A stretch of DNA of 32,585 bases, taken from Chitinophagales bacterium (lineage in GTDB: Bacteria; Bacteroidota; Bacteroidia; Chitinophagales; CAIODY01). The DNA lies in assembly GCA_026461075.1 (NCBI GenBank), contig JAPJNH010000036.1:1-32585 (forward strand). Direction: 5' to 3'. Shown piece after piece: positions 9,157-31,332 of the stretch (position 1 is the first letter of the stretch; each line of letters starts with the position of its first letter). Position numbers and translations under genes: made by a program. The notes beneath the pieces are model-generated. The model searched no databases. It was not told the origin of the DNA and saw only the letters and a list, made by a program, of their open reading frames with translations.

Positions 9157-9247
<91 letters not shown>

Positions 9248-9249
9248 TT

Positions 9250-9293
9250 AAAAAACCCGAAAAGCACGTTGTAGACGGCTTTTCGGGTTTTTT
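9250..9293. terminator. Rho-independent terminator after tRNA-Ser
   Basis: A perfect 16-bp stem (AAAAAACCCGAAAAGC, 9250-9265, with its complement 9278-9293) and a 12-nt loop, with a T tract on either strand. It starts four bases after the tRNA and can work in both directions. Confidence 0.85.
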
Positions 9294-9306: not shown

Positions 9307-9328
9307 CCCCACATTTTCCCCACATTTT
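9307..9328. repeat. Two adjacent copies of CCCCACATTTT
   Basis: Perfect 11-bp tandem repeat 60 bp inside the tRNA-proximal end of the island. Short direct repeats in this position can be arm-type binding sites of a tyrosine integrase; that role is inference. Confidence 0.4.
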
Positions 9329-9530
9329 TCATAACTTGCGCTGTGCACAAGTATTTTTCTTGTAGGTCAAAAAAGAAGGCCTATTACACGGAATTGGCAC
9401 CGTAAACAGGTTCAATTAGTAGCTAAGTCGTCATTTACATTTGAATGGATAGGTATAAACCAGTGAATGCATAGCCACCATTATGGTATTGGATTCTCAA
9501 TAAATTTCAACCGCTTTTAATGCTTATCGC

Positions 9531-9746
9531 TCTATTTCCATTCTCACATACGTTCGTATACAAGAATAAAAAAGTCGCTAATTACCACTTTATTAATGAG
9601 CGAATTTTAACTGCCATTAACTCCACTTGACAGTTATTGATATGGTTCAGTTCATATCAATCTATGTTGATACACATCGATGTGTTTCGATTTATATACT
9701 TATAAATTGATTTAATTCGATTTGAATTGATGTGAATCTATTTGAA
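9531..9746. repeat. Direct repeat A, with 11 x 10-bp phased array
   Basis: 216 bp, highly similar to 17471-17680 in the same orientation; the main length difference is six bases after TCTATTTCCA. The first half contains the palindrome ATACG-TT-CGTAT. From 9637 to 9746 the sequence falls into eleven consecutive 10-mers, most of the form TYGATNTGAA (for example TCGATTTGAA and TTGATGTGAA). A 10-bp period does not fit coding DNA and puts each unit on the same face of the helix. Confidence 0.8.
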
Positions 9747-9909
9747 CTTAATGAGGTATTAATTTGTGTTAAAACGTACCTTATTTTACATGCATTTTAT
9801 GCTCAGGAATATCGTATTTGATAAATAAAAAATCTATTTTTTTTAATTTAATAATTCATTCGTTTTTTTTCTGTTTTTGTTTGGAGTGGTCAAAATGTTG
9901 AAAAATATA

Positions 9910-9974
9910 CCCTAAAACTAGTGAAAATGGAGTCGTTTTCGACTGCTTTTTGCAAAAATACCCTAGTTTTAGGG
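9910..9974. promoter_or_regulatory. Long inverted repeat with nested hairpin upstream of the giant gene
   Basis: CCCTAAAACTAG (9910-9921) is the exact reverse complement of CTAGTTTTAGGG (9963-9974). Inside the 41-nt spacer is a second perfect hairpin, AGTCG-TTTT-CGACT (9931-9944). The structure ends just before the TTG of the candidate promoter, so it could be an operator, a terminator for transcripts entering the island, or a recombination site. Confidence 0.55.
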
Positions 9975-9976
9975 TC

Positions 9977-10007
9977 TTGACAAACGTGATTTGAGGTTGT
10001 ACTTTTA
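9977..10007 (+). promoter_or_regulatory. Candidate promoter of the 2083-residue protein gene
   Basis: TTG at 9977-9979, a 20-nt spacer and TACTTTTA at 10000-10007 (consensus TAnnTTTG with the last base changed). It would give a leader of about 50 nt before ATG 10061. Confidence 0.4.
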
Positions 10008-10060
10008 TGAAAATATTTTTAATGTGATTCGCATTAATATTAATTACTAAAAAGTAAAGA

Positions 10061-13000
10061 ATGATTTCAACTACTCTAAAACAGCAAATCAAGTTAGGTA
10101 AAAGTTCGTTTGGGCTAAAATATCTAATTCAAAAAAGAAATTCAATTAACCCTATTCTTCGTTTCCTTTTCTTCTTTTGGTCACTTAATTTACTTGCCAT
10201 GTTCAATCCGCAAGTATCATTAGCACAAACAAACTCGCCTTTTACCGCCACCAAACCAGAGCATCTTGGTGTGGATAGAGCGTTTGATTCCATTTATGAT
10301 GGCTTTGGAAATAAGTGGGCTATTGAGGATTTAGAAATCAATGATTCGTCCGCTTCAAATACAACTTCAAAGCAATCTTTTCAGCTTTGTACTTCAGGCT
10401 ATTTTAAACTTTATTTTGAACAAGGGTGTGGAATGGAAGGGGCAACACCAATTGAAATCGCAAGAAGAAATGTAATTTGCAAATTATTTTTAGATATTTC
10501 GAATTTTATTAACTCTCCGCTTCTAACTTCAGGTCAACACATTAATATTTGGGTTCGCGATATAAACGCTGTGTTAAGCACCCCATGCTCTTCTAGTGGA
10601 CAACCCACTCTAGGTTTAGCCACTTCATTCTATTCGATTCCCAATAATTTAAGTGCAGGCGGAATTGCTGATAACCTTATTTGGCAAACTATCAATACAG
10701 GAGTTGATGCCTATAATAACTTCGCATTACCTTTGACAGCCCAAGGAATTGCAAGTAATGGCTATTTTAACTATAATTTGTATCATGGCGTTATTGCATT
10801 TAATTTTAATGCTTCATGTGGAATAAATTGGTGTCCAAGTAATTCATGGGCCACCTTACCTTTAGCCAATTCTTCAGAATTTGACTTATATACTGTTGCT
10901 TTGCATGAGATAACGCATTCATTAGGTTTTAGCTCAGCAATTTCCTCTAATGGAACTTCTATTTTCTCCTCTGGTGGCACTGGACAATATTTTACACGAT
11001 ATGATTCCTATTTAGAAACCTCAAATGGCTTGGGACGCCCAAGTGGAACCCATTTAATCACTTCCCCGTCAAGCTCATGTACGAATTATAATGTTGTGTT
11101 TAATGCTAATGTCAGTGCAAGTGTTTTAGCCCCTGCTGGAGCTAGCTCAAAGACTAATATCGAATATGTTAGTTCTAGCAATTTTGGACAGCCAGTCTAT
11201 ACCCCTGCAGTTTGGGCACCTAACTTAAGTCTAAGCCATTTTGATGATATGTCCTTTAATAATGGAGCTGTTGGAGGCTCTTTGGGCGCAACTAGTTATA
11301 CACCTTGCACAACTTTGGGCTGCTATTTCACGATGACACCCAATTATGGACTTGGTGTAAATAATAGGTACTTGATGGCTGAAGAAAAAAATGTTCTTTG
11401 TGATTTAGGTTATAGCTTGAATAATTCATTTGGAAGTAGTACTGTAATTGGATCTACTGAAACATATACCAATACTTGTAACAACTCTGTATTGGCAGGC
11501 CTAAATGATGGAATAATAGGAGGTGGATACACTTATACTGGTGTTTTAACTACTTCAGGCGGCAGTTTTTTAATAACTAATATTTTGAGTAATGATTATG
11601 ATGCGCATACATCAAATTTACACCCAACTAGCTTTAAATGCTTAGAAGATATTACTGACCCGACAATTACTTTATCTACCACAAGTGGATCGTTTCCTGG
11701 AAATTTCACTTTCAATTATACAGGTAGTTCGAAACTTGGTGTACATATTTTAAGGTATATTCCCTATGATAATGCAACTTATAATTCAGGTAACATTACC
11801 TACATTTTTGTTTATTTAAGTAATAAAGATTGCACACCTAGTATGTGTAACCTCGTTTCTAATGGTGACTTTGAAAGTAATATTGGGCCAATTAATCCTG
11901 CCCAATTTTTGTTTCCCTTGGATAATAAAGAGGCTTGCTGGCAAGATGTGTTGAATAATTATGATGTTTACTCTGATTTAACGACACCTGGAAGTACTTT
12001 CATCCCGAGTTCAGCTAACTATGTTCCGACTAGTCGTTTTTCTTCGCCTGCATTAAATTACTCTATGACCACTACGCCCAATCATAATTTTATTGGCATT
12101 GTTGGTTGGTATAACAAGACCAAAGGGTATTATTTGGAAGCAATTGAAAATGTCCTTCAAACACCTTTAATTGCTGGACAAAGTTATGTGCTTAGTTTGC
12201 AAGCAAACTTAGCAGATTCAAAAGGAAATGTATTATCACCATACCCTTTTGGACATCTACGAGTTTTAGGAACTAATTCACTTTTGCCAAGTAATAGTTT
12301 TCCTATTAGTCTTCTTTCAACTAATCCATCAAGCGCAGGTTACTATGATTTGGTTCAAAATATACCAACTGCTAATTGGTTTGAAGTTCCTTTAAATGGA
12401 AATGCATGGAATAATTTTACTTGCACATTTACCGCGCCTGTAAATTTGTCTTATATAGTTATTGTTAATGATGCTGTTAAAACATATTCAGTTTACGGAA
12501 GTGTTCCAAGTAATAAAGCATCTTACATATATATTGATAATGTAGAAATTCAGCCAGCATCTACAGCCGTTACTTTAAATTTGCCGAAGAGCGCTTGTTC
12601 TTCAAATGATATAATTAATAATTTATCTCAATACTTAAGCAATATAATGCCAGGCGGGGTATTTACAATTAATATACAAGGAAACGCAGGCTTAAGCTAT
12701 TCTGCTGGTCAATGCGATTACAATCCTGCCTTAGCGGGTGCAGGTTTGCATATAATTACATATACCTATACGGATGTTAATGGATGTAAACATTCAGTGA
12801 GTGATAATATTGGAATGCAACAAAGTTGGAGTCTTGCAGTTACTTCTACTCCAACCACTGTTTGCTATGGGTCTCCTTTGACATTTTATGCAAGTACTAT
12901 AAATTTACCCGTTGGCACTACGGTAAATTATATGCTTTATGACCCAAATAATGTCTTAATCCAGAACACTACTTCTAATGTTTTAACTGTAGCCAACACA

Positions 13001-16000
13001 ACTCAGTTTGGTGCATATACAATTGTTGCAAGTGCTTTAGGTTGTACTAACACTAGTACAATAGGTATTCAACAAGAGCTAAATCCTTTTACATTTACAT
13101 GCCAAGAGGAGGCTAATTGTAGTAACATTGTCCATCTAAGCTATATTGGTAATGGAGGTACAAATCCGACCCAAGTATATTCCATTAATATTGCTTTTCA
13201 ACCAAATGGAGGTTCTCCTATTCCTCTTTCAAATTTTACCTCACCAAGCCTAATTTCAGCACCAATAGCAATACCTCTTACAGGAGCACCTATACTTACT
13301 GGCGGTACAATTATAATAACTATAACTAGTGCAAAGGGTTGTACATTTACTCAAGTCATAAACTTAGAACCATGCTGTGATTATGGCATTTGGGAAGATT
13401 CGCATACTTCGAATTTTAGTTTGTTGTTTAAAAACACGACTACATCGGCCTTAATAGCTAACTTGGGAGGGAACACTATTTTTGCTTCCTATAATTCTAA
13501 CCCTTCTAGCAAAATAATTGTAATTGACGGAATTCTTACAGTGGATGCTAGCTTTACATTTCAAAATTGGGATAACATTAAGTTGACTAAAAATGCTAAA
13601 ATTGAATTGAGCGGTCCGAATGTGAAATTGACATTTGATGGCTGTCACTTAAGCGCCTGCGATAATTATATGTGGAAAGGAATTTTTGCTTCCAATTCAA
13701 CACAAGAAATTGTATTTACAAATTCATTAATTGAAGATGCTGAATGTGCTATTAAAAGTTTAAATGGTCAAATTTATGCGCAAAACACTGTTTTTAATAA
13801 GAATTTAATTTCTTTGAATATTATAAACATGGGGCAACATAACATTGTTTACAATGGTACTGCTGTTAATACGATTTGTAAAAATTGTAAGTTTTATTGC
13901 CATTCAAATATTGCATTTACTTCAAATGGTGGATCAAGTTGGATTGCTAGTTATTCCAATCCACCTTCCGCATTAGCAACTTTACTTCCTTCTATTAGTT
14001 TTCCTACTGGCAGTTATAGAAGTATGTATGGAATTGTTTTAAACAATGTTGGAAGTGGAAGCACTAATTTTATTAATGTTATTGGTAATAGAACGAACAA
14101 TTATGCTAATTCGAATCATTTCGATAATATAGATCAAGGGATTTACTGTAAGTCGATAAGTAATGTAAAGATTACAGATAACTATTTCTCCAATATTGGC
14201 ACGACACCAACTATTTATGCCGTCAATACAATTTTACAGGCGGGTGTTGCTTTGTATGTGAATCAGGTTAATCTTGCTTATGCGGCCTATAATAAATTTA
14301 ATGATTGTTCTTTAGGTATTGATTGGTTCAATTCTGGTGGAATTTCAAATACCTCACCTTGTGTTGAATACAATATATTTAATCAGAGTTCATTGCCTGC
14401 TCCATTTATTACTGCAACTGGGTTGAAAGTTAGAGGCGAGATATATAAGCGCTTTAATTGTTTCCAAAACAGTTTTACTAATTTGAATTATTCAATAACT
14501 ACTATACAAAATAGTGCATGTAAAATAACGATTGATCAAAATCACATTTATTCTCAGATAGGAAATACCTTGCAACAAACAAGGGGAATTTCGATTAACG
14601 AGATATCTACTGTTCTAAACAATAGATATTCTGTTACAAATAACGATATACATAATTGCAATACAGGTATTAGTGTTGTAAATAATCGTGCTGCAAGTAT
14701 TAATGTTCCATTAGGCGGTATTTTTCAACGCTTTTTGGGCAATACTATTTATTTTAATAAGTCTACTGGTATTGGCATTTCTTTAAATGGATCTCAAAAC
14801 CAAACAGTACAGTGTAATAGTGTAATTAATACAGGCAATATTTTCTATGCTTATCACGGACTAAAAATTTCAGGTTCTTCGCCTTATAATTTAATTGATG
14901 GAAATAATTTTCAAAATACTGCTATTGGCGCCTATGTATTAGGCAACCAAACACCTACTTATTTTACAGGTAATTATTTCTTTCATGATATAAGAGGAAT
15001 TGAACTGGATCAAAAAGGATATATAGGCGACCAGGGTAAATTTTTGAATCCAAGCTATGGGATTAATACCCAACATTGGGGTAATAAATGGGCATTACCT
15101 AATCTACCTAATGTATATGCAACCTATACTGATAATGGTTCTAATAAAACTACCACTACACCTGCCATGATGCAAAACCACATTTTTGTTTTGGCTAGTG
15201 ATAAAGGTGGCGCAACAAGTACTTATGGATTTAATACATTATTTTCTCAAAGTAATGCGAGCGCTGGAATTTTAGACTTTGCAAATCTTGGTAGTATTGC
15301 ACCATATTATACTTCAATAGCCTGTCAATGTAGTGGTTGTCGAAGTATTGAAGAAGGTGATGCGCCTATTACAGAAGGTGATGAAGCTTTAGCCTCGATT
15401 AATTTAGACTCATTAACCAATAGTTTTTCTGATGAAGAGTTGACAAGTACGTTCTTTCATCAGTTGGCGTTATATGAACAATTGCAGCAAAATCCAGATA
15501 TGCGAAGTTTTATTATAGCCCAGTCCTCTACTACTCCTGAAGCTGAAATAATTAGTGATTTTCTTGACAGGGTAGATTTGTTAGGAAATGAAGAAAGCAA
15601 TAATATTAAATTGATTTATCAACTTGAAACAGAGTTAGATGCAGCTTTTGACAGTACCATAACAGATAGTTCAGCATTTTTCGCAAACAGACAGGCGCAA
15701 ATACTAAATGCCATTAGTTTAAATGATCAAATAAATAGCGAGTTGATGTCAGTTACGTATTTAAAAATGGTGAATACAATTTATTTGCCTATGCTTTTAT
15801 CGGATTCTTTACCCATAATTGAAAATAATGATTTACTTTTATTACAAATGATAGCCAATAGTTGCCCTTCTCAGTATGGTCCTGCTGTTGAGAATGCGCG
15901 TACCTTATTGAGGGCTTACGGTATTCAAACTGAATATGATGATGAAGAGATATGTAGTGTTGGATTGCGAACTTCAAATAATCTTAACGATAATAGTTTA

Positions 16001-16312
16001 CAGAATGACATTGATGCCGCTAATGCTTCGTTAAAAGACAATTTGTTTTCAAATGAAGTTTTGCAAAATCTAAATATATACCCTAATCCAAGCGATGTAG
16101 TATTGAATTTTGAATATGAACAGGTTCCTGTAGGAAGTGTTTTAGAAATTGTAAATGCAGTAGGGGTTAATATGTTAAGTTTAAAACTGAATACTACCAG
16201 TGGTAAACAAGAAGTGATTGTAGATCAATTTCCTGCAGGAGTATATATTGCTAAAATAATAGCAGAAGGTAAAGTGGTTAAACTTGTTAAGTTTAATATT
16301 ATACACCATTAA
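10061..16312 (+). CDS. Giant secreted metalloprotease / beta-helix protein with T9SS type A sorting domain
   Basis: 2083 residues. A signal peptide with a long basic n-region ends at about residue 56 (VSLAQ). Residues about 80-460 form a zinc metalloprotease: HEITHSLGF puts H282, E283 and H286 at the active site. Position 292, where classic metzincins have the third His, is Ser; the likely third ligand is H393 in LSHFDDMSF and the Met-turn M439 in YLMAEE, the spaced layout of leishmanolysin-like (M8) enzymes. Next come a jelly-roll-like domain (CNLVSNGDFES, about 600-840), PKD/Ig-like modules, a right-handed beta-helix with many NxI and GI turns (about 1150-1700), a helical acidic segment (about 1760-1980) and a type A sorting domain (LNIYPNPSDVVLNF to the end). 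Surface adhesion or matrix processing is inferred. The DNA is clearly more AT-rich than purQ, consistent with island cargo. Confidence 0.85.
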   Translation: MISTTLKQQIKLGKSSFGLKYLIQKRNSINPILRFLFFFWSLNLLAMFNPQVSLAQTNSPFTATKPEHLGVDRAFDSIYDGFGNKWAIEDLEINDSSASNTTSKQSFQLCTSGYFKLYFEQGCGMEGATPIEIARRNVICKLFLDISNFINSPLLTSGQHINIWVRDINAVLSTPCSSSGQPTLGLATSFYSIPNNLSAGGIADNLIWQTINTGVDAYNNFALPLTAQGIASNGYFNYNLYHGVIAFNFNASCGINWCPSNSWATLPLANSSEFDLYTVALHEITHSLGFSSAISSNGTSIFSSGGTGQYFTRYDSYLETSNGLGRPSGTHLITSPSSSCTNYNVVFNANVSASVLAPAGASSKTNIEYVSSSNFGQPVYTPAVWAPNLSLSHFDDMSFNNGAVGGSLGATSYTPCTTLGCYFTMTPNYGLGVNNRYLMAEEKNVLCDLGYSLNNSFGSSTVIGSTETYTNTCNNSVLAGLNDGIIGGGYTYTGVLTTSGGSFLITNILSNDYDAHTSNLHPTSFKCLEDITDPTITLSTTSGSFPGNFTFNYTGSSKLGVHILRYIPYDNATYNSGNITYIFVYLSNKDCTPSMCNLVSNGDFESNIGPINPAQFLFPLDNKEACWQDVLNNYDVYSDLTTPGSTFIPSSANYVPTSRFSSPALNYSMTTTPNHNFIGIVGWYNKTKGYYLEAIENVLQTPLIAGQSYVLSLQANLADSKGNVLSPYPFGHLRVLGTNSLLPSNSFPISLLSTNPSSAGYYDLVQNIPTANWFEVPLNGNAWNNFTCTFTAPVNLSYIVIVNDAVKTYSVYGSVPSNKASYIYIDNVEIQPASTAVTLNLPKSACSSNDIINNLSQYLSNIMPGGVFTINIQGNAGLSYSAGQCDYNPALAGAGLHIITYTYTDVNGCKHSVSDNIGMQQSWSLAVTSTPTTVCYGSPLTFYASTINLPVGTTVNYMLYDPNNVLIQNTTSNVLTVANTTQFGAYTIVASALGCTNTSTIGIQQELNPFTFTCQEEANCSNIVHLSYIGNGGTNPTQVYSINIAFQPNGGSPIPLSNFTSPSLISAPIAIPLTGAPILTGGTIIITITSAKGCTFTQVINLEPCCDYGIWEDSHTSNFSLLFKNTTTSALIANLGGNTIFASYNSNPSSKIIVIDGILTVDASFTFQNWDNIKLTKNAKIELSGPNVKLTFDGCHLSACDNYMWKGIFASNSTQEIVFTNSLIEDAECAIKSLNGQIYAQNTVFNKNLISLNIINMGQHNIVYNGTAVNTICKNCKFYCHSNIAFTSNGGSSWIASYSNPPSALATLLPSISFPTGSYRSMYGIVLNNVGSGSTNFINVIGNRTNNYANSNHFDNIDQGIYCKSISNVKITDNYFSNIGTTPTIYAVNTILQAGVALYVNQVNLAYAAYNKFNDCSLGIDWFNSGGISNTSPCVEYNIFNQSSLPAPFITATGLKVRGEIYKRFNCFQNSFTNLNYSITTIQNSACKITIDQNHIYSQIGNTLQQTRGISINEISTVLNNRYSVTNNDIHNCNTGISVVNNRAASINVPLGGIFQRFLGNTIYFNKSTGIGISLNGSQNQTVQCNSVINTGNIFYAYHGLKISGSSPYNLIDGNNFQNTAIGAYVLGNQTPTYFTGNYFFHDIRGIELDQKGYIGDQGKFLNPSYGINTQHWGNKWALPNLPNVYATYTDNGSNKTTTTPAMMQNHIFVLASDKGGATSTYGFNTLFSQSNASAGILDFANLGSIAPYYTSIACQCSGCRSIEEGDAPITEGDEALASINLDSLTNSFSDEELTSTFFHQLALYEQLQQNPDMRSFIIAQSSTTPEAEIISDFLDRVDLLGNEESNNIKLIYQLETELDAAFDSTITDSSAFFANRQAQILNAISLNDQINSELMSVTYLKMVNTIYLPMLLSDSLPIIENNDLLLLQMIANSCPSQYGPAVENARTLLRAYGIQTEYDDEEICSVGLRTSNNLNDNSLQNDIDAANASLKDNLFSNEVLQNLNIYPNPSDVVLNFEYEQVPVGSVLEIVNAVGVNMLSLKLNTTSGKQEVIVDQFPAGVYIAKIIAEGKVVKLVKFNIIHH

Positions 16313-16354
16313 CGAAATATAGTATTACTTAATAATTAAAAGTATTTTAGAGAT

Positions 16355-17386
16355 ATGAAAAAATATATAATTTGCATTATTGCATTTTTATTTCATTCCC
16401 TTGATTCAAATTCTCAGAATTTAATAAAAAACCCAGGATTTGAACAACATAGTGGTCAGTGCGTTCCTTTCGTATATGCATCTTTCGGACTTGACAACCT
16501 ATGTAAAATTGACTTTTGGAAAAGTTCAGGAGGAACTCCAGATGCTTGTTCTACAGGCTTGTTAACAAGTTTACCAATTCCAGGAGCAGGTTTTAGTAAA
16601 AATATTTATCCACACCAAGATAGTTGCTGCGTAGGAATTATAACTTTTATACAAGGACAATTTGTCTCAAGTCCACATAATTGCAGAGAATTATTGCAGG
16701 GAGAACTAACAAAACCCCTTGTAAATGGTCATTTATATGAATTTAGTATATGGGTACATTTGTTAGACACGATTTACAGTATAAGTTCCTATGGGAAAAT
16801 AGCCGGAATAAACAGTTTGAGTGCTTATTTTAGCGATACTATGTTACCCTATAATTATACAGGTTTTCCACCTATACAAAAATTCACTCCACAAGTGCAA
16901 ATTAATCAAATGGTGAGTGATACAGGTAATTGGGTTAAACTAATTGACACTTTTAGGTATTTCGGCAATAAGGTACGATACATAAATATTGGTAATTTTA
17001 AAGCAGATGGTCAATTTCAATGGGTTTTAGTTGACAGTATTAATTTTATGCCAATATTTTCTTATTTCTTTATCGATGATGTTAGTTTAATTGATTTAAA
17101 TAATAACAATACTGGCTTGGAAGAGGAGGAACAAAACAGTAGTGAAGGATTGGTAGTGAGTCCAAATCCTACTACTGATCATATTTCAATGAGTGGAGTG
17201 AAAGTGGCAGAAAGTAGCACAATAGAGGTAATTGATTTATTAGGCAAACTTTGTATTTCGGTTGAAAATAAAACAGCAGAGTCAATTCCTGAAATAGACA
17301 TATCAAAACTTCCCGCAGGTGTCTATTTTGTAAAATTGATCGATATAAATGGTTTGAATCATCGGGTCAAATTCGTCAAGCAATGA
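16355..17386 (+). CDS. Secreted protein with T9SS type A sorting domain
   Basis: A 343-residue protein, 42 bp after the giant protein and in the same direction. The signal peptide ends near residue 20 (LDSNSQ). The mature part opens with NLIKNPGFEQ, the start of a jelly-roll, carbohydrate-binding-like domain common in Bacteroidota (about residues 22-250, with FWKSSGGTPDAC and a C-terminal FIDDVSLIDL strand). A similar NGDFES segment exists inside the giant protein. The last ~80 residues are a type A sorting domain (VVSPNPTTDHISMSG, then LPAGVYFVKL). It is probably exported with, and may bind the same target as, its neighbour. No catalytic motif seen. Confidence 0.85.
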   Translation: MKKYIICIIAFLFHSLDSNSQNLIKNPGFEQHSGQCVPFVYASFGLDNLCKIDFWKSSGGTPDACSTGLLTSLPIPGAGFSKNIYPHQDSCCVGIITFIQGQFVSSPHNCRELLQGELTKPLVNGHLYEFSIWVHLLDTIYSISSYGKIAGINSLSAYFSDTMLPYNYTGFPPIQKFTPQVQINQMVSDTGNWVKLIDTFRYFGNKVRYINIGNFKADGQFQWVLVDSINFMPIFSYFFIDDVSLIDLNNNNTGLEEEEQNSSEGLVVSPNPTTDHISMSGVKVAESSTIEVIDLLGKLCISVENKTAESIPEIDISKLPAGVYFVKLIDINGLNHRVKFVKQ

Positions 17387-17470
17387 CCCTGAATATATAC
17401 TAGGAAAACCTCAAAATAAGTTCACACTGGCGGTGAGTAGTTACAACTTAGTATTAAAGTATTCTGCAAT

Positions 17471-17680
17471 TCTATTTCCACATACGTTCGTATACAAGAT
17501 TAAAATAGTCTCTGATTATTACTTTATTAATAAGCGAATTTTAACTACCATTAACTCTACTTGACAGTTATTGATATGTTTCAATTCAAATCAATCTATG
17601 TTGATGCAAATCGATGTGTTTTGATTTATATACTTATAAATTGATTTAATTCGATTTGAATTGATGTGGATCTATTTGAA
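17471..17680. repeat. Direct repeat B, with 11 x 10-bp phased array
   Basis: Second copy of repeat A, 85 bp after the stop of the second T9SS cargo gene. The phased part is 17571-17680. Substitutions relative to copy A keep the 10-bp register (TCGAT and TTGAT are exchanged in places), and no insertion or deletion occurs in the phased part, which argues that the spacing is under selection. Confidence 0.8.
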
Positions 17681-18013: not shown

Positions 18014-18706
18014 TTATTGTTCGTCTAGTCCTTCAATTTGTCCATTATCTTGATGGTTTCCAAGTCTAATAAGTGGCTGAATAACAATTGCTGTGGCAAA
18101 CTGTCTTATTTCAGCATTACTATATCCAAGTTCTTTTAATGTTTCAATTCGTTGATTTACAATTCTGCCTTTACGTTCTTGGATTTCTAGTTCGCCTATT
18201 TCTTCTTCTTGTCTGCTTCGGTATTTTTCATCCTTTTTTCTTTCGTGTCTGTCCTTGATATATTCTCTTATTTGTTGCAATGGATTTAAACTTCCAAGCA
18301 CTTCCCAAAAACCAGGTGATTGAATGTTTACTTTTGAAATAATTAATCTGTCACTTGGTAAAACAATTTTTTCGATGTCAATTTTACTTTGCAGTTCAAG
18401 TAAGTTGGGCAAAGTGTCTTTGACTCTGTTATAAGCATACTCTTCAAATAACATTCGATAAATAAATTGATCAAAGTGGTAGTCTGTGTGATTTGAGAAT
18501 TCTTTCCAGTTTCTTCTAACTCTGTGAAAACGCTCGTCAACCTGTTTTAGTTTTCTTGCTCTGTCATACGATAAAGTGTCTACAAGAAAGTCAAAAACGT
18601 AAAGGCTATTGTATGCAGTTTCAAGGTCTGTGAGAAAAGTTGTTACTTCCGAAACAGTCCCAAGTCGTTGTGCTTTAATTCTTAATGATGTTATTTCTGT
18701 TGCCAT
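18014..18706 (-). CDS. Unknown cytoplasmic protein with charged helical C-terminal half
   Basis: 230 residues, no signal peptide. The first ~110 residues are predicted helical (YNSLYVFDFLVDTLSYDRA). A central motif reads NIQSPGFWEVLGSLNPLQQI at about residues 127-146, followed by a highly charged helix (REYIKDRHERKKDEKYRSRQ onward) to about residue 200, probably a coiled coil. The conserved-looking SPGFWE...LNPLQQI segment suggests a real family, but I do not recognise a function. It lies inside the tRNA island as a single-gene unit, so a role in accessory functions such as defence is possible but unproven. Confidence 0.7.
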   Translation of the reverse strand: MATEITSLRIKAQRLGTVSEVTTFLTDLETAYNSLYVFDFLVDTLSYDRARKLKQVDERFHRVRRNWKEFSNHTDYHFDQFIYRMLFEEYAYNRVKDTLPNLLELQSKIDIEKIVLPSDRLIISKVNIQSPGFWEVLGSLNPLQQIREYIKDRHERKKDEKYRSRQEEEIGELEIQERKGRIVNQRIETLKELGYSNAEIRQFATAIVIQPLIRLGNHQDNGQIEGLDEQ

Positions 18707-19122: not shown

Positions 19123-19455
19123 TTATTTCAGCAAAACATACACAAAGTTCTTGCCTGCAACAGTTAATTTAGAACCTCCTCCTGGTTTTTTGTTTGCCAA
19201 TTCATCATCATGTTTTGCAATTAACCATGCTTCAATTTTATTCGCATAGTTTTCAGAATTAGTCTCATATATAACCACCATTCTATCCCAGTTCTTGGAT
19301 AACAAGTGCTCATTGAACCTTTCTTGAGGGTCTCTTCCTGTAATGCCTATTTTAACTTGTTTGTAGTTTCTTTTATATTGCCCTATAGTTCTATTTAAAC
19401 TTTCTATCACTTCGTTAATGTGTCCTGTAATTAAATTGTACTCAACCATTTTCAT
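19123..19455 (-). CDS. Small GIY-YIG-like protein, possibly permuted
   Basis: 110 residues. VKIGITGRDPQERFNEH (residues 34-50) matches the second strand and first helix of GIY-YIG nucleases, with the catalytic-type Arg46 four residues before His50. MVVIYETNSENYANKIEAWL carries Glu75 in the position of the metal-binding Glu. The usual first strand (the GIY part) is missing ahead of this, but the C-terminus ends FVYVLLK, which looks like that strand moved to the end. PGGGSKL precedes it. It may be a nuclease or only share the fold. It sits 198 bp from the second tRNA-Ser scar, inside the island. Confidence 0.6.
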   Translation of the reverse strand: MKMVEYNLITGHINEVIESLNRTIGQYKRNYKQVKIGITGRDPQERFNEHLLSKNWDRMVVIYETNSENYANKIEAWLIAKHDDELANKKPGGGSKLTVAGKNFVYVLLK

Positions 19456-19652: not shown

Positions 19653-19666
19653 CCCCCCCTCTCCGC
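19653..19666 (+). repeat. tRNA-Ser 3' core, copy 2 (attR-like)
   Basis: CCCCCCCTCTCCGC, identical to 9234-9247 and in the same orientation. With copy 1 it bounds a 10.4-kb segment. The rest of the tRNA is not present upstream, so this is a scar and not a second tRNA gene. Confidence 0.7.
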
Positions 19667-19706
19667 AAATAAAAAAAGCGAACCAGACGGTTCGCTTTTT
19701 TTATTT
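19667..19706. terminator. Terminator-like hairpin after core copy 2
   Basis: A perfect 18-bp stem (AAATAAAAAAAGCGAACC, 19667-19684) with loop AGAC and its complement at 19689-19706. It begins on the base after the tRNA core, just as the native tRNA is followed by its own terminator. Confidence 0.85.
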
Positions 19707-19792
19707 GAAGCAGCAGGATGTGAATTATGGGGAAAGGTTAAAAGTTAAAAGGGAAAGATTAAAGATTAAAGATTAAGAATTGAGAATTAAGT

Positions 19793-19866
19793 ATGGCCTA
19801 TTAGATGCAATTTGACGAAAAAGAAGCCAATTATTCATTTTTAATTTTTCATTATTAATTATCCAT
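19793..19866 (+). repeat. Dispersed repeat, copy 1
   Basis: Begins ATGGCCTATTAGATGCA and runs through TTTGACGAAAAAGAAGCCAA into an AT-rich tail that ends at the third tRNA core. Related copies are at 20133, 23796 and 28822. Confidence 0.7.
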
Positions 19867-19880
19867 CCCCCCCTCTCCGC
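19867..19880 (+). repeat. tRNA-Ser 3' core, copy 3
   Basis: CCCCCCCTCTCCGC again, 214 bp after copy 2. The unit between copies 2 and 3 holds only a terminator, low-complexity DNA and one dispersed repeat. Confidence 0.65.
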
Positions 19881-19926
19881 AAACAAATCTAAAAGCCCGG
19901 CTAATGCCGGGTTTTTAGATTTGTTT
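19881..19926. terminator. Terminator-like hairpin after core copy 3
   Basis: A 21-bp stem with one G-T pair (left arm 19881-19901, ending AAAAGCCCGGC), loop TAAT, right arm 19906-19926. It starts on the base after the core, is different in sequence from the hairpin after copy 2, and is the strongest in the window. Confidence 0.85.
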
Positions 19927-20132
19927 AAGCCTCCCCATTAAGGGATGTACGAAGTAAATCCCTTTTCCTAAGTCAAGCAATTGGTGATCCCGAAGTCTCG
20001 GAAGTGAAAGGTGAAAGGTTAAAGGTGAAAAGGGAAATGAATGATTTATGATGAATAATTAAAGGGAAAGGTCATTCTGAAGTCTCGGGAGTGAAAGGTT
20101 AAAAATTAAGAATTAAAAATTGAGGATTTAGG

Positions 20133-20206
20133 ATGGCCTGTTAGATGCACTTTGACAAAAAAGACGCCAACTATTCATTTATAATTTTTCATTATTAATT
20201 ATTCAT
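20133..20206 (+). repeat. Dispersed repeat, copy 2
   Basis: Starts ATGGCCTGTTAGATGCAC, then TTTGACAAAAAAGACGCCAA and an AT-rich tail, ending at tRNA core copy 4. Nearly identical to the start of copy 3 at 23796 and similar to copy 1. Confidence 0.7.
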
Positions 20207-20220
20207 CCCCCCCTCTCCGC
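20207..20220 (+). repeat. tRNA-Ser 3' core, copy 4
   Basis: CCCCCCCTCTCCGC, 340 bp after copy 3. Only a weak hairpin follows. It is the rightmost scar seen and probably marks the outer limit of the serial insertions. Confidence 0.65.
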
Positions 20221-20629
20221 AAATAAATCTGAAAGCATTGGAAACCTCAGGGCTTTTTATTAAATATTTAAAATGTTTTAGAATATGGATAACAAATTCA
20301 AAATCAAATCATATGGCTTTGGGGAACTTGCTTAGTTGTTTTTTTATATTTCGAAAAAAAACTGGAGTTACTCAATTTAAGAGATGGATTAGTACAAGTT
20401 GTATGGTTTTACCCATGCATGAAAACCTTGGATATAATATTGGTAGTAGAATACTGACTCTAGCTCAAGTGAAAGCAATAGTGGATGAGTTTGGGCAGCT
20501 GTGATTGAAGTTTTATAGATTAACAATAAATGGCTTTCAATTAAAATTATTAATTAGGAGCAATTCAACCAAACTGTTTTAAAGTACCTTATTAGCCCAC
20601 TCCTCTTTCTATTCGAAGTTGGATTAATA

Positions 20630-21379: not shown

Positions 21380-21796
21380 TTATATTGTTTTAGATTCGTT
21401 TGTATTGTCTCCAATATAGTTTCGGTAAAGCTCATAAGCCATAAACCACAATGAATAAACCGTTAGTCGCCCCCAAAAGTCTATAAACGGAAGAGTTGCT
21501 AAGTCGGGTGAAAGTTTGTTTAAATATCCGAGAGTAAGGAAAATCGGAATATTTACAACAACAATTGAAATTATAATTGCTTTCAAAATACTTTTTCCTG
21601 GCAAGAACTTTCTGTAAATCGCATAGGCCGTAAACCAAAGGGAGTAAACAGAAAGTCGCCCCCAAAAGTCAATAAATACAATTGCTCTCGGTGTGCTTGA
21701 AAACACTTGCAAGTATGCTAGAAAAAGAAATATAATAGCGTTTGCTGCAACAAGTGTTCCTAATACTTGTTGTACCATTTTTTTGTTTTTTGTCAT
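21380..21796 (-). CDS. Small membrane protein formed by internal duplication
   Basis: 138 residues with four membrane helices. Two halves are copies of each other offset by 63 residues: FIDFWGRLSVYSLWF at 41-55 and FIDFWGRLTVYSLWF at 104-118, both followed by AY.(I/L)YR, and the helices before them also align. The duplication is visible in the DNA (CGCCCCCAAAAGT at about 21467 and again at about 21657). I do not recognise a family. It is cotranscribed with the DUF347 protein (3-bp gap), and the terminator at 21812-21844 separates the pair from the genes upstream. Confidence 0.75.
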   Translation of the reverse strand: MTKNKKMVQQVLGTLVAANAIIFLFLAYLQVFSSTPRAIVFIDFWGRLSVYSLWFTAYAIYRKFLPGKSILKAIIISIVVVNIPIFLTLGYLNKLSPDLATLPFIDFWGRLTVYSLWFMAYELYRNYIGDNTNESKTI

Positions 21797-23705: not shown

Positions 23706-23807
23706 ATGAATCACCCACAAGATACCGGCGCATTTACCACAGTCTCAGGAATGATAGGTGGCGTGGTAAAAGCTATTTCCGTGAAGCTGTTAGTGATGGC
23801 CTGTTAG
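23706..23807 (+). pseudogene. Possible 5' fragment of a small membrane protein cut by the dispersed repeat
   Basis: An ATG frame of 33 residues contains the protein-like hydrophobic run VSGMIGGVVKAISVKLLV and stops inside the dispersed repeat (TAG of GGCCTGTTAG). The composition suggests the beginning of a membrane peptide whose 3' part was replaced when the repeat arrived. Weak evidence; it could be chance. Confidence 0.25.
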
Positions 23808-23850
23808 ATGCACTTTGACAAAAAAGACGCCAACTATTCATTATTAATTA
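23796..23850 (+). repeat. Dispersed repeat, copy 3
   Basis: ATGGCCTGTTAGATGCAC, then TTTGACAAAAAAGACGCCAA, identical in its first ~50 bp to copy 2. The tail ends within three bases of the lipoprotein stop codon on the minus strand. Confidence 0.7.
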
Positions 23851-23852
23851 TT

Positions 23853-24449
23853 TCAAATGATTTTGCGTTTGGGTTTCTGGCCTTTGAGATGTAAATAGTT
23901 TTCAAACCCTATTTTATCCAACTCAAATTTGTTGGAGGAATTATTGAAGTTGAAATCGATAAAATAATCATATTGATGTTCGCCCCCATTTTTGAAAACG
24001 ACTAAAACAAATGCAGCTTTTTCTTTATCCACCCAGCCCATCATATTTACATAAACAAGTGAATGTCTTTCTGCCTGTTTTATTTGACCAAGTTCTGGGC
24101 TAACCAGTCGGATTTGTGTGTTCTCAATTGTAGCTGGAAGTTCTATGTCAGGAAAGTCGTCAGCTTGTCCGTAAACGTGCTTTCCAAAATACAAAGTGTC
24201 AAATGTGATTTGGTCGTTTTTGTAGGCCGCTTTTATAAACTCTGCAATGGCTTGGGTATAAATTGCGCTTAGTTCCGTTTTCTGGATCGTCAAAGAATCT
24301 GCCTGTTCAGCATTTTTTTGAGGAGTGGAAGAAGGGTCCGCGCTGATTGTATCTACCGGAGTTCTGTCTCCGTTATAATTGGAGCAAGCAGCCAAGCCTG
24401 TGCAAATTATCAAAATATAAAACTTCGTTATGTAATTCGGTCGTTTCAT
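23853..24449 (-). CDS. Lipoprotein of unknown function
   Basis: 198 residues with a lipoprotein signal (ILIICTGLAAC, lipid-bearing Cys22). A polar Ser/Asp/Thr linker follows, then an alpha/beta domain (AIAEFIKAAYKNDQITFDTL, YDYFIDFNFNNSSNKFELDK) that resembles small NTF2-like or phosphate-binding folds only loosely. The start codon overlaps the preceding hemerythrin gene's stop by four bases (ATGA), so the two are translationally coupled. Located in the cell envelope. Confidence 0.7.
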   Translation of the reverse strand: MKRPNYITKFYILIICTGLAACSNYNGDRTPVDTISADPSSTPQKNAEQADSLTIQKTELSAIYTQAIAEFIKAAYKNDQITFDTLYFGKHVYGQADDFPDIELPATIENTQIRLVSPELGQIKQAERHSLVYVNMMGWVDKEKAAFVLVVFKNGGEHQYDYFIDFNFNNSSNKFELDKIGFENYLHLKGQKPKRKII

Positions 24450-26252: not shown

Positions 26253-26306
26253 AATATATTAGCTAAAAAGTCTTAAATTCACTATATTTGGATAATATAT
26301 TAGCTA
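26253..26306 (+). promoter_or_regulatory. hipBA promoter between twin operator half-repeats
   Basis: The 13-mer AATATATTAGCTA occurs at 26253-26265 and again at 26294-26306, 41 bp apart (about four helical turns). Between them is a perfect -7 box, TATATTTG at 26283-26290. The left copy overlaps the expected -33 region, the right one the transcription start and the bases up to the ATG. This is what an autorepressed XRE-controlled promoter would look like. Confidence 0.65.
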
Positions 26307-26308
26307 TT

Positions 26309-26599
26309 ATGAGAAAATTTGGAATCGATAAAAAACCATCTGATATTTTAGCAGAACTTGCATTAAAGCACAAAATGTTAAGAAAACAGTCGGGATTAAC
26401 CCAAGGAGAGTTAGCCAAACGTTCAGGTGTTTCTCTAGGTAGTATTAAACGCTTTGAATTATCAGGGCAAATTTCATTGGAATCATTATTAAAACTCGCG
26501 CAAATTTTAAATCGACTCAATGACTTTGAACCAGTTTTTAAACCGACGGAGAATTTGAAAGAACTAGAAAAATTATTTAGCGATAAAACAAGAATATAA
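26309..26599 (+). CDS. hipB: HipB-like antitoxin, XRE-family HTH
   Basis: 96 residues from ATG 26309. A TTG at 26288 in frame would add seven residues but is itself part of the -7 promoter box, so it cannot be translated from this promoter. The HTH is residues about 17-70: LAELALKHKMLRKQSGLTQG then ELAKRSGVSLGSIKRFE and LSGQISLESLLKLAQIL. The TAATG overlap with the next gene (one base shared) couples it to HipA. By family precedent it neutralises HipA and represses the operon. Confidence 0.85.
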   Translation: MRKFGIDKKPSDILAELALKHKMLRKQSGLTQGELAKRSGVSLGSIKRFELSGQISLESLLKLAQILNRLNDFEPVFKPTENLKELEKLFSDKTRI

Positions 26600-27825
26600 T
26601 GGAGTCTGTTGAGAAATTAAATGTTTCTATTCAGTTTAACGAAGAAGAAATTGCCGTTGGAGAATTAGTGCAAGATGCTAAAAATATCTACTTTAAATAT
26701 CATGTAGATTTTATTAAACGTGGTTTGGAAATATCACCAATCAAATTAAAATTAAACAGCCTAATAAATAAAGCTGATCCAATTCCTTTCGAAGGCTTGT
26801 TTGGTGTTTTTGCAGATTCATTACCGGATGCCTGGGGGAAATTATTACTGGATAGATCTTTAGCTGCAAGAGGCGTGGCTGTGGAAAATATTAATGCCCT
26901 CGACCGCTTGGCGTACATTGGAGGTAACGGCATGGGAGCATTGAGGTACAAACCGCAAATAGCAAACGACAGCCAGTTAGCATTTAAGGTTGAATTAGAT
27001 GAAATTGCCAAAGTAAGCAATCAAATAATAACGGGTGTTGCTACCAATGTGTTGGACGAATTATATCGACTTGGAGGTTCTTCAGGAGGTGCTCGTCCCA
27101 AAATATTAGTTGCATATAATCCAATTACAGAACATTTAATGGGCGTCGAAAAAATATTACCAAATGATTACGAGCATTGGCTAATAAAATTTCCTGCATC
27201 TTCAGATCGACCTGATATAGCAAACATTGAATATGCGTATTATAAAATGGCTTTAGATGCAGGTATTGAAATGAGTGAATCTAAGCTTTTTAAAGGGCTC
27301 TCCGGGCAAGCTTATTTCGGTACTAAACGATTCGATAGAAATGGAAGTAAATGTTTGCATTTGCATTCGGCGGCAGGAATGATGCACGATAATTTTCGCT
27401 TAAGCAATATTGATTATGGCGATTTAATGGATTGTGCTTTTAGACTTGAAAAGGATGTACGCGCCTATGAGAAAATATTACGCGTAGCTGCCTTTAACGT
27501 CTTTGCTCACAACCGAGATGATCATAGCAAGAACTTTGCTTTTTTAATGGATGCTTCAGGAATCTGGAAAGTTGCCCCTGCTTATGATTTAACATTTTCA
27601 AGTTCAAGCCATGGAATGCATAGCACAACGGTTGCACGAGAAAGTAAAAATCCCACTAAAAAACATTTGATGGATTTGGGGGATTATTTTAAAATTAAAA
27701 ATGCTAGTAAAATAATTGATGAAGTACAGGCTGTTGTAAATAATTGGAACTGGTATGCAGCAAGTTGCGAAGTAAGTAACGAGTCTAAAAAACAAATAGA
27801 AAAAGTACTTGTATCAAAGAGTTAA
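26599..27825 (+). CDS. hipA: HipA-like serine/threonine kinase toxin
   Basis: 408 residues, complete. The N-terminal couple_hipA part ends near residue 120 (DPIPFEGLFGVFADSLPDAW, YIGGNGMGALRYKP). The kinase has the P-loop-like SSGGARPK (161-168), the lysine in WLIKF, YFGTKRFDR, the catalytic NRDDHSKN with Asp307 and Asn312, and the metal-binding Asp330 in APAYDLTF. All key residues are present, so it is probably active. HipA enzymes phosphorylate and inactivate translation factors such as glutamyl-tRNA synthetase. Unlike E. coli, this is the long single-chain form paired with a small HipB. Confidence 0.9.
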   Translation: MESVEKLNVSIQFNEEEIAVGELVQDAKNIYFKYHVDFIKRGLEISPIKLKLNSLINKADPIPFEGLFGVFADSLPDAWGKLLLDRSLAARGVAVENINALDRLAYIGGNGMGALRYKPQIANDSQLAFKVELDEIAKVSNQIITGVATNVLDELYRLGGSSGGARPKILVAYNPITEHLMGVEKILPNDYEHWLIKFPASSDRPDIANIEYAYYKMALDAGIEMSESKLFKGLSGQAYFGTKRFDRNGSKCLHLHSAAGMMHDNFRLSNIDYGDLMDCAFRLEKDVRAYEKILRVAAFNVFAHNRDDHSKNFAFLMDASGIWKVAPAYDLTFSSSSHGMHSTTVARESKNPTKKHLMDLGDYFKIKNASKIIDEVQAVVNNWNWYAASCEVSNESKKQIEKVLVSKS

Positions 27826-29670: not shown

Positions 29671-29721
29671 TTAACTACTCATTGCCTTCAACGCTATTTG
29701 AATATGCGCAAGATGATGCTT
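29671..29721 (-). pseudogene. Duplicated 3' end of the yfiT gene
   Basis: 33 bp (29689-29721) are identical to 30817-30849 near the end of the intact yfiT, in the same orientation and coding frame. Read in the yfiT frame the remnant gives KHHLAHIQIALKAMSS and then a stop at 29671-29673; the intact gene gives KHHLAHIQIALQADKN. It therefore holds a complete alternative gene end. The GyrI-like gene's stop codon (29720-29722) lies on the boundary. Confidence 0.7.
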
Positions 29722-30798: not shown

Positions 30799-31332
30799 TT
30801 AATTTTTGTCCGCTTGCAACGCTATTTGAATATGCGCAAGATGATGCTTGCAATGCCAGGCGTAAATACCGATGTTTTCATCTATTCTAAACGCTTTACC
30901 ATGTTCTGGATGAATGAAGGTTCGTGCGAGTTGTTCATCGCTTAAATGTTTTAATAAAACAGTCCATCTTTCATGGATCCCTTCAATAATTTTTAACGAA
31001 GCCTCGATAGGCAAATCTTTACTGTCTTCCATTTCAGCCCAACGATTTTCATGATATGGTTTAATAGTAGGCTTGTCTTCTGTTAACGCTAGTTTAAAGC
31101 GAATGAAGCTGTTTGCATGACTGTCGGCGCAGTGATGAACTATTTGTCGTATGGTCCAGCCATTCTGGCGATAAGTCGTGTTTAGTTGCTCTTCTGTTAA
31201 GGACGCTACGAGTTCTTTTAGACTTTTAGGGAAAGTCTCAATTTCTGAAATCCAGGTATCTAAAATTTCATGCGTTATGCATGCAGGTTTCTGAAAGTTT
31301 CCGATGGGATATTTGAGATTAACTTGGTGCAT
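30799..31332 (-). CDS. YfiT/DinB-family putative thiol (bacillithiol) transferase
   Basis: 177 residues. The N-terminal KYPIGNFQKP is the YfiT hallmark. The four-helix DinB bundle carries the metal-binding histidines in TIRQIVHHCADSHANSF and IYAWHCKHHLAHI. Such Ni/Zn proteins transfer low-molecular-weight thiols, typically bacillithiol in Bacteroidota and Firmicutes, to electrophiles. It lies upstream of the pentapeptide gene. Its last 16 codons exist as a near-identical second copy at 29671-29721, on the far side of the pentapeptide/GyrI-like pair. Confidence 0.88.
   Translation of the reverse strand: MHQVNLKYPIGNFQKPACITHEILDTWISEIETFPKSLKELVASLTEEQLNTTYRQNGWTIRQIVHHCADSHANSFIRFKLALTEDKPTIKPYHENRWAEMEDSKDLPIEASLKIIEGIHERWTVLLKHLSDEQLARTFIHPEHGKAFRIDENIGIYAWHCKHHLAHIQIALQADKN

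Follow-up and report, generated by a model that had tools for sequence, protein, structure and literature searches.

Genomic islands at tRNA genes have been defined by Islander (PMC4383910). Standard searches for tRNA islands require an integrase gene, so that islands without one are discarded. The 10K (10-kb) island of Riemerella anatipestifer lies at a tRNA-Arg gene and has 53-bp att repeats, the printed sequence of which closes with a terminator-like hairpin; it encodes an integrase for which both integration and excision of the island have been shown (PMC6764341). Arrays of short direct repeats occur in the parC-type centromere-like sites bound by ParR, where the repeats measure 10 bp in pB171 and 11 bp in R1 (PMC9426499). 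Here we analyse a window of 32,585 bp, the whole of contig C119 of a draft genome (G000; 2.5 Mb, 166 contigs, contamination estimated at 4%), in which genes for T9SS-tailed proteins lie behind a tRNA gene together with two copies of a repeat that ends in a phased array. The presence of the T9SS suggests a member of the Bacteroidota.

Paired repeats and the phased array

A sequence-only reading of the window had reported a pair of direct repeats of about 210 bp, each ending in eleven 10-bp units in phase. The pair is real: positions 9536-9746 and 17470-17680 align without gaps over 211 nt at 91% identity, the longest identical run being 46 bp. Of the 19 differences between the two copies, 7 fall in the 110-nt array and the other 12 in the 101 nt to its left; none is an indel, so that the register is unbroken, as that reading held; the differences in the array and in its flank (7/110 vs 12/101) are not significantly different in frequency (P = 0.23). 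The last 110 bp of each copy consists of exactly eleven 10-bp units with the consensus TYGATNTRAA, and the self-match at lags of 10, 20 and 30 is 0.57, against 0.32 +/- 0.035 in Markov shuffles (maximum of 20,000, 0.50), the two arrays being the top-scoring stretches of the entire 32.6 kb. The array limits given in Table 1 follow from the unit profile, which has sharp edges and falls to the random level in the flanking 10-mers of the same register on either side. Columns 1 and 5 of the unit are T in 22 of 22 units. Count and register of the units thus stand, but two of them (9657 and 9697) fit the consensus poorly. The array is non-coding, as had been proposed. Two further short direct-repeat pairs are present in the window, at 29684-29721 / 30812-30849 (95% identical) and 21420-21487 / 21609-21676 (81%).

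Table 1. Features around the repeat pair, in window coordinates
Feature	Position	Strand	Evidence or remark
tRNA-Ser (GCT), intact	9157..9247	+	ARAGORN, Rfam; 3' end is the putative insertion target
Terminator hairpin right after tRNA-Ser	9250..9293	+	inverted self-match; putatively island-borne
Putative island-end segment, copy 1 (full length)	9311..9746	+	vs C126:60473-60147(-): 90% over 269 nt, 93% over 59 nt
Array 1	9637..9746	+	eleven 10-bp units TYGATNTRAA; self-match, unit profile
2083-aa T9SS-tailed protein	10061..16312	+	beta-helix/NosD-like stretch
343-aa T9SS-tailed protein	16355..17386	+	T9SS sorting tail
Putative island-end segment, copy 2	17470..17680	+	without the left 225 nt; probable relic
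Array 2	17571..17680	+	eleven 10-bp units, register same as array 1
230-aa protein	18014..18706	-	no family match
110-aa protein	19123..19455	-	GIY-YIG-like by eye; weak match to a PHROG endonuclease; nothing significant in Pfam
Displaced tRNA-Ser 3' end, copy 1 (14 bp)	19653..19666	+	own terminator behind
Displaced tRNA-Ser 3' end, copy 2 (16 bp)	19865..19880	+	different terminator behind
Displaced tRNA-Ser 3' end, copy 3 (16 bp)	20205..20220	+	third hairpin behind

A third copy and the extent of the segment

The genome contains one additional copy, for a total of three, on the minus strand of contig C126 (60147-60473). Copy 3 is internally deleted: about 112 bp are missing from the middle of the segment, and the array is thereby reduced by more than half. 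Copies 1 and 3 have a further 225 bp in common on the left, beyond the extent of copy 2, and the full segment therefore spans approximately 9311-9746; the repeat as originally described was correct as a pair but too short on this side. Copies 1 and 3 are about as diverged as copies 1 and 2 (90-91% identity), which argues against a recent local origin of copy 2 by duplication of copy 1. Nor does a single local duplication, the explanation against which the sequence-only reading had set its own, account for the repeats, because the third, equally diverged copy lies in an island at another tRNA gene. A misjoin is possible at repeats longer than a short read, but the 9% divergence makes it less likely.

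Another stretch of C126 (54208-54305) combines 8 bp of the tRNA-Lys end with the terminator and the initial 41 nt of the end segment, apparently as a second relic of the same island end; homologous recombination could be an alternative origin of the 98-bp and 43-bp repeats in this contig. No terminal inverted pair of at least 30 nt joins the ends of either 9311-9746 or 9536-9746 (shorter ones are possible), and a MITE or simple transposon was rejected on this ground. A small reading frame in the C126 copy (MEIERLALKAV...) was likewise discarded, given that it has no Pfam or PHROG match and that indels separate it from the corresponding sequence of copy 1.

Neither the end segment nor the array was found beyond the genome under study among 398 genomes of the order, and in 395 genomes of the class the array pattern occurred in this genome only, with no occurrence of a control pattern. 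Exact-pattern scans of genome and viral contig collections returned no end segment and, for the array, only brief resemblances spanning one to three units; judging from their surroundings, those of two or three units are due to chance. The phages and plasmids searched contain no copy of the repeat. The single copies at empty sites anticipated by the sequence-only reading did not turn up: relatives yielded no empty site with one array.

Position at tRNA genes, composition and comparison with a sister species

Copy 1 begins 64 nt past the 3' end of tRNA-Ser(GCT) and copy 3 begins 51 nt past that of tRNA-Lys(TTT), both oriented as their tRNA and immediately beyond its terminator. The tRNA-Lys end is repeated at C126 57189-57209 (21 bp, with half of the terminator). 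All displaced ends, three of tRNA-Ser and two of tRNA-Lys, are downstream and on the strand of their tRNA, a pattern that we take to mark repeated insertions into the 3' ends of tRNA genes. When 14-bp tRNA ends were scanned against the sequence examined (about 30 tRNAs of this genome), extra copies were found only behind the cognate tRNAs Ser-GCT, Lys-TTT and Phe-GAA. The corresponding ends in the sister species, G002, belong to one tRNA, Arg-TCT, and none were seen in G003, several contigs of which end near a tRNA.

On contig C15 of G002 (113-357), the 17-bp displaced end of tRNA-Arg(TCT) is located about 170 bp downstream and is followed by a terminator-like hairpin. On the minus strand of contig C69 of the genome under study (15400-16014), a 486-bp unit comes after tRNA-Phe. 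It holds one gene, for a GIY-YIG nuclease (Pfam E 1.2e-8), and ends in a second copy of the tRNA-Phe 3' end, terminator and about 30 further bp; a palindromic 30-bp sequence is found in the T-loop part of this second copy. In the window, a sequence of about 60-110 bp (GATGGCCTGTTAGATGCACTTTGAC...) lies immediately to the left of displaced ends 2 and 3 (19750-19896 and 20090-20236) and occurs again, without a tRNA end, at 23795-23855; it is possibly a distal island end.

The GC content is 42.4% before tRNA-Ser and 33.0% after it, and 33.4% in the C126 island vs 38.5-39.6% in its flanks. PurQ is 95% identical in G002. At tRNA-Ser, the homology between the two genomes stops at the last base of the tRNA gene, behind which G002 has a different hairpin and no such island in the 165 bp before its contig ends. 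At the tRNA-Lys locus, homology stops at the terminator; 8.4 kb with three T9SS genes in the genome under study stand against 1.5 kb in G002, comprising a different terminator of its own and another T9SS-tailed reading frame.

Cargo and recombinases

The view of the region as a horizontally acquired island at a tRNA gene with T9SS cargo is borne out. Its largest gene product, labelled a giant protease in the sequence-only reading, has the T9SS sorting tail but no convincing protease assignment, the metalloprotease model scoring 26 bits where its cut-off is 80. A diverged paralogue (1849 aa) is encoded on contig C11 and there is a counterpart in G002, with approximately 41-46% identity over the first half. 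The repeat does not generally surround T9SS cargo genes, as had been suggested it might: the genome yields 96 T9SS-tail matches vs three repeat copies, and a rough estimate gave no impression of T9SS genes being strongly enriched next to tRNAs in general. Right of the displaced tRNA ends, the low-GC part contains a HipA-like kinase gene (26288-27825; Pfam HipA_C, Couple_hipA) with a small ORF ahead of it. A DUF4248-like reading frame was recognized by eye at 20285-20501.

A genome-wide search for tyrosine recombinases (PF00589) gave three matches, none of them in the window or in the C126 island. Two are also present in G002 and are probably XerC and XerD. The third, on contig C122 (2-1012), is cut by the contig end, does not clearly correspond to any of the G002 matches and is followed by hipB/hipA-like and T9SS genes; it may be regarded as a candidate enzyme for the islands. 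An integron cassette array was rejected, as this protein, the only candidate for an integron integrase, scores 53 bits on TIGR02249, for which the cut-off is 265.

Interpretation and alternative explanations

Given the positions of the copies at tRNA genes, the displaced tRNA ends, the drop in GC content and the point where homology with G002 stops, we infer that the repeat forms the tRNA-proximal end of islands that are stacked and lack an integrase. In full, our preferred reading, to which we assign a probability of about 0.55, is that the repeat represents the conserved tRNA-proximal end of islands that target tRNA genes, carry T9SS cargo and form a small family, that copy 2 is a relic, and that the array binds a protein. 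Each island would arrive by site-specific recombination at a tRNA 3' end, restoring the tRNA and bringing a terminator, next to which the end segment comes; the older tRNA end would be pushed downstream by the newer island, leaving several such ends in a row. Copy 2 would then correspond to the right half of the end of an older island, the left half and the tRNA end having been deleted, and a truncated relic of this kind is probably the simplest reading. With no tyrosine recombinase among their genes, the islands would need one supplied in trans.

Register and column conservation, the two features on which this part is based, suggest that the array is under constraint as a phased protein-binding site. 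Located at the inner edge of the segment, it would most likely bind several molecules of a single protein along one side of the helix and might serve, at a guess, as an accessory site for integration, excision or some other step in the life of the island. The DNA bending proposed earlier is not borne out as an intrinsic property, curvature under the wedge model being unremarkable (P = 0.14 and 0.27), and the IHF consensus is absent from the array. Counting against the preferred reading, besides the lack of a tyrosine recombinase in the islands, the array is 390-500 bp from the tRNA end, farther than the usual arm sites of integrases, and copy 2 has no adjoining tRNA end. Copy 3 lacks more than half of the array, which is therefore either dispensable there or part of a dead island. 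A bolder version, in which a protein on the eleven phased sites forms a new type of nucleoprotein site and lets T9SS islands without an integrase move between tRNA-Ser and tRNA-Lys with a borrowed recombinase, seems to us improbable.

Degenerate units, the absence of the array from every other genome searched and its partial deletion in copy 3 would all fit a decayed, functionless minisatellite carried along with the island end. This explanation deserves consideration but is doubtful: column conservation is too uneven for even decay, unevenness this strong arising in 0.9% of simulations of an old minisatellite (P = 0.009); not one of the eleven units has gained or lost a base between two copies about 9% diverged; and adjacent units are no more alike than remote ones. 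The claim that the repeats delimit an exchangeable 7.7-kb unit corresponds to another alternative, namely, that the T9SS gene pair is lost, gained or exchanged by homologous recombination between copies 1 and 2. The length, identity and longest identical run of the pair would suffice for RecA-type exchange, and a solo copy does exist at another locus. We nevertheless consider it unlikely, because the near-equal divergence of all three copies speaks against recent exchange within this pair, no strain without the unit came to light, and outer boundaries are already supplied by the tRNA-Ser 3' end (9247) and its displaced copies (19653-20220).

Two further proposals assign the array a role in expression. 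As a set of head-to-tail 10-bp sites for OmpR/PhoB-like tandem binding, with one site per helical turn, it could control the gene for the 2083-aa T9SS protein, on the same strand as array 1, which is 315 bp upstream of the start. Copies 2 and 3, however, follow T9SS genes and precede none on their own strand, and a scan for sigma-70-type promoters, which does not cover those of the Bacteroidota type, was at chance level, leaving such regulation distinctly unlikely. Even less credible is a structured RNA, that is, a long imperfect hairpin in the plus-strand transcript. Copy 2 has a folding energy of -33.3 kcal/mol (z -5.8 vs dinucleotide shuffles), but 270 of 300 orders of permuted units in copy 1 and 45 of 300 in copy 2 fold at least as well, so that most of the stability appears to come from the near-self-complementary unit itself; permutation of columns leaves 9 of 300 for copy 2, and the tRNA alone reaches the Rfam gathering score.

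Comparison with known systems

To our knowledge, little is known about the spread of T9SS surface-protein genes between related bacteria. At this locus, what appear to be stacked insertions at tRNA ends carry such genes, and an end sequence is common to islands at different tRNA genes. Should the array serve mobility, it would offer a handle for finding islands without an integrase.

One close parallel is with the Islander islands, which share with the present ones an intact tRNA gene, displaced pieces of its 3' end further downstream in the same orientation (three for tRNA-Ser; 21 bp for tRNA-Lys), stacking of these fragments and foreign base composition. Unlike in Islander islands, no integrase lies between tRNA and fragment here, and the islands have a common 435-bp end segment with a phased array, and T9SS cargo. 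The Riemerella 10K island is likewise a small island behind a tRNA gene, and its direct repeat includes a terminator-like hairpin; it differs in having its own integrase, and the description cited mentions no such array. With parC, the array shares short direct repeats near one helical turn in length, but no parM/parR-type partition gene was matched among the island proteins tested, the unit is unrelated, and the array is positioned at the end of an island.
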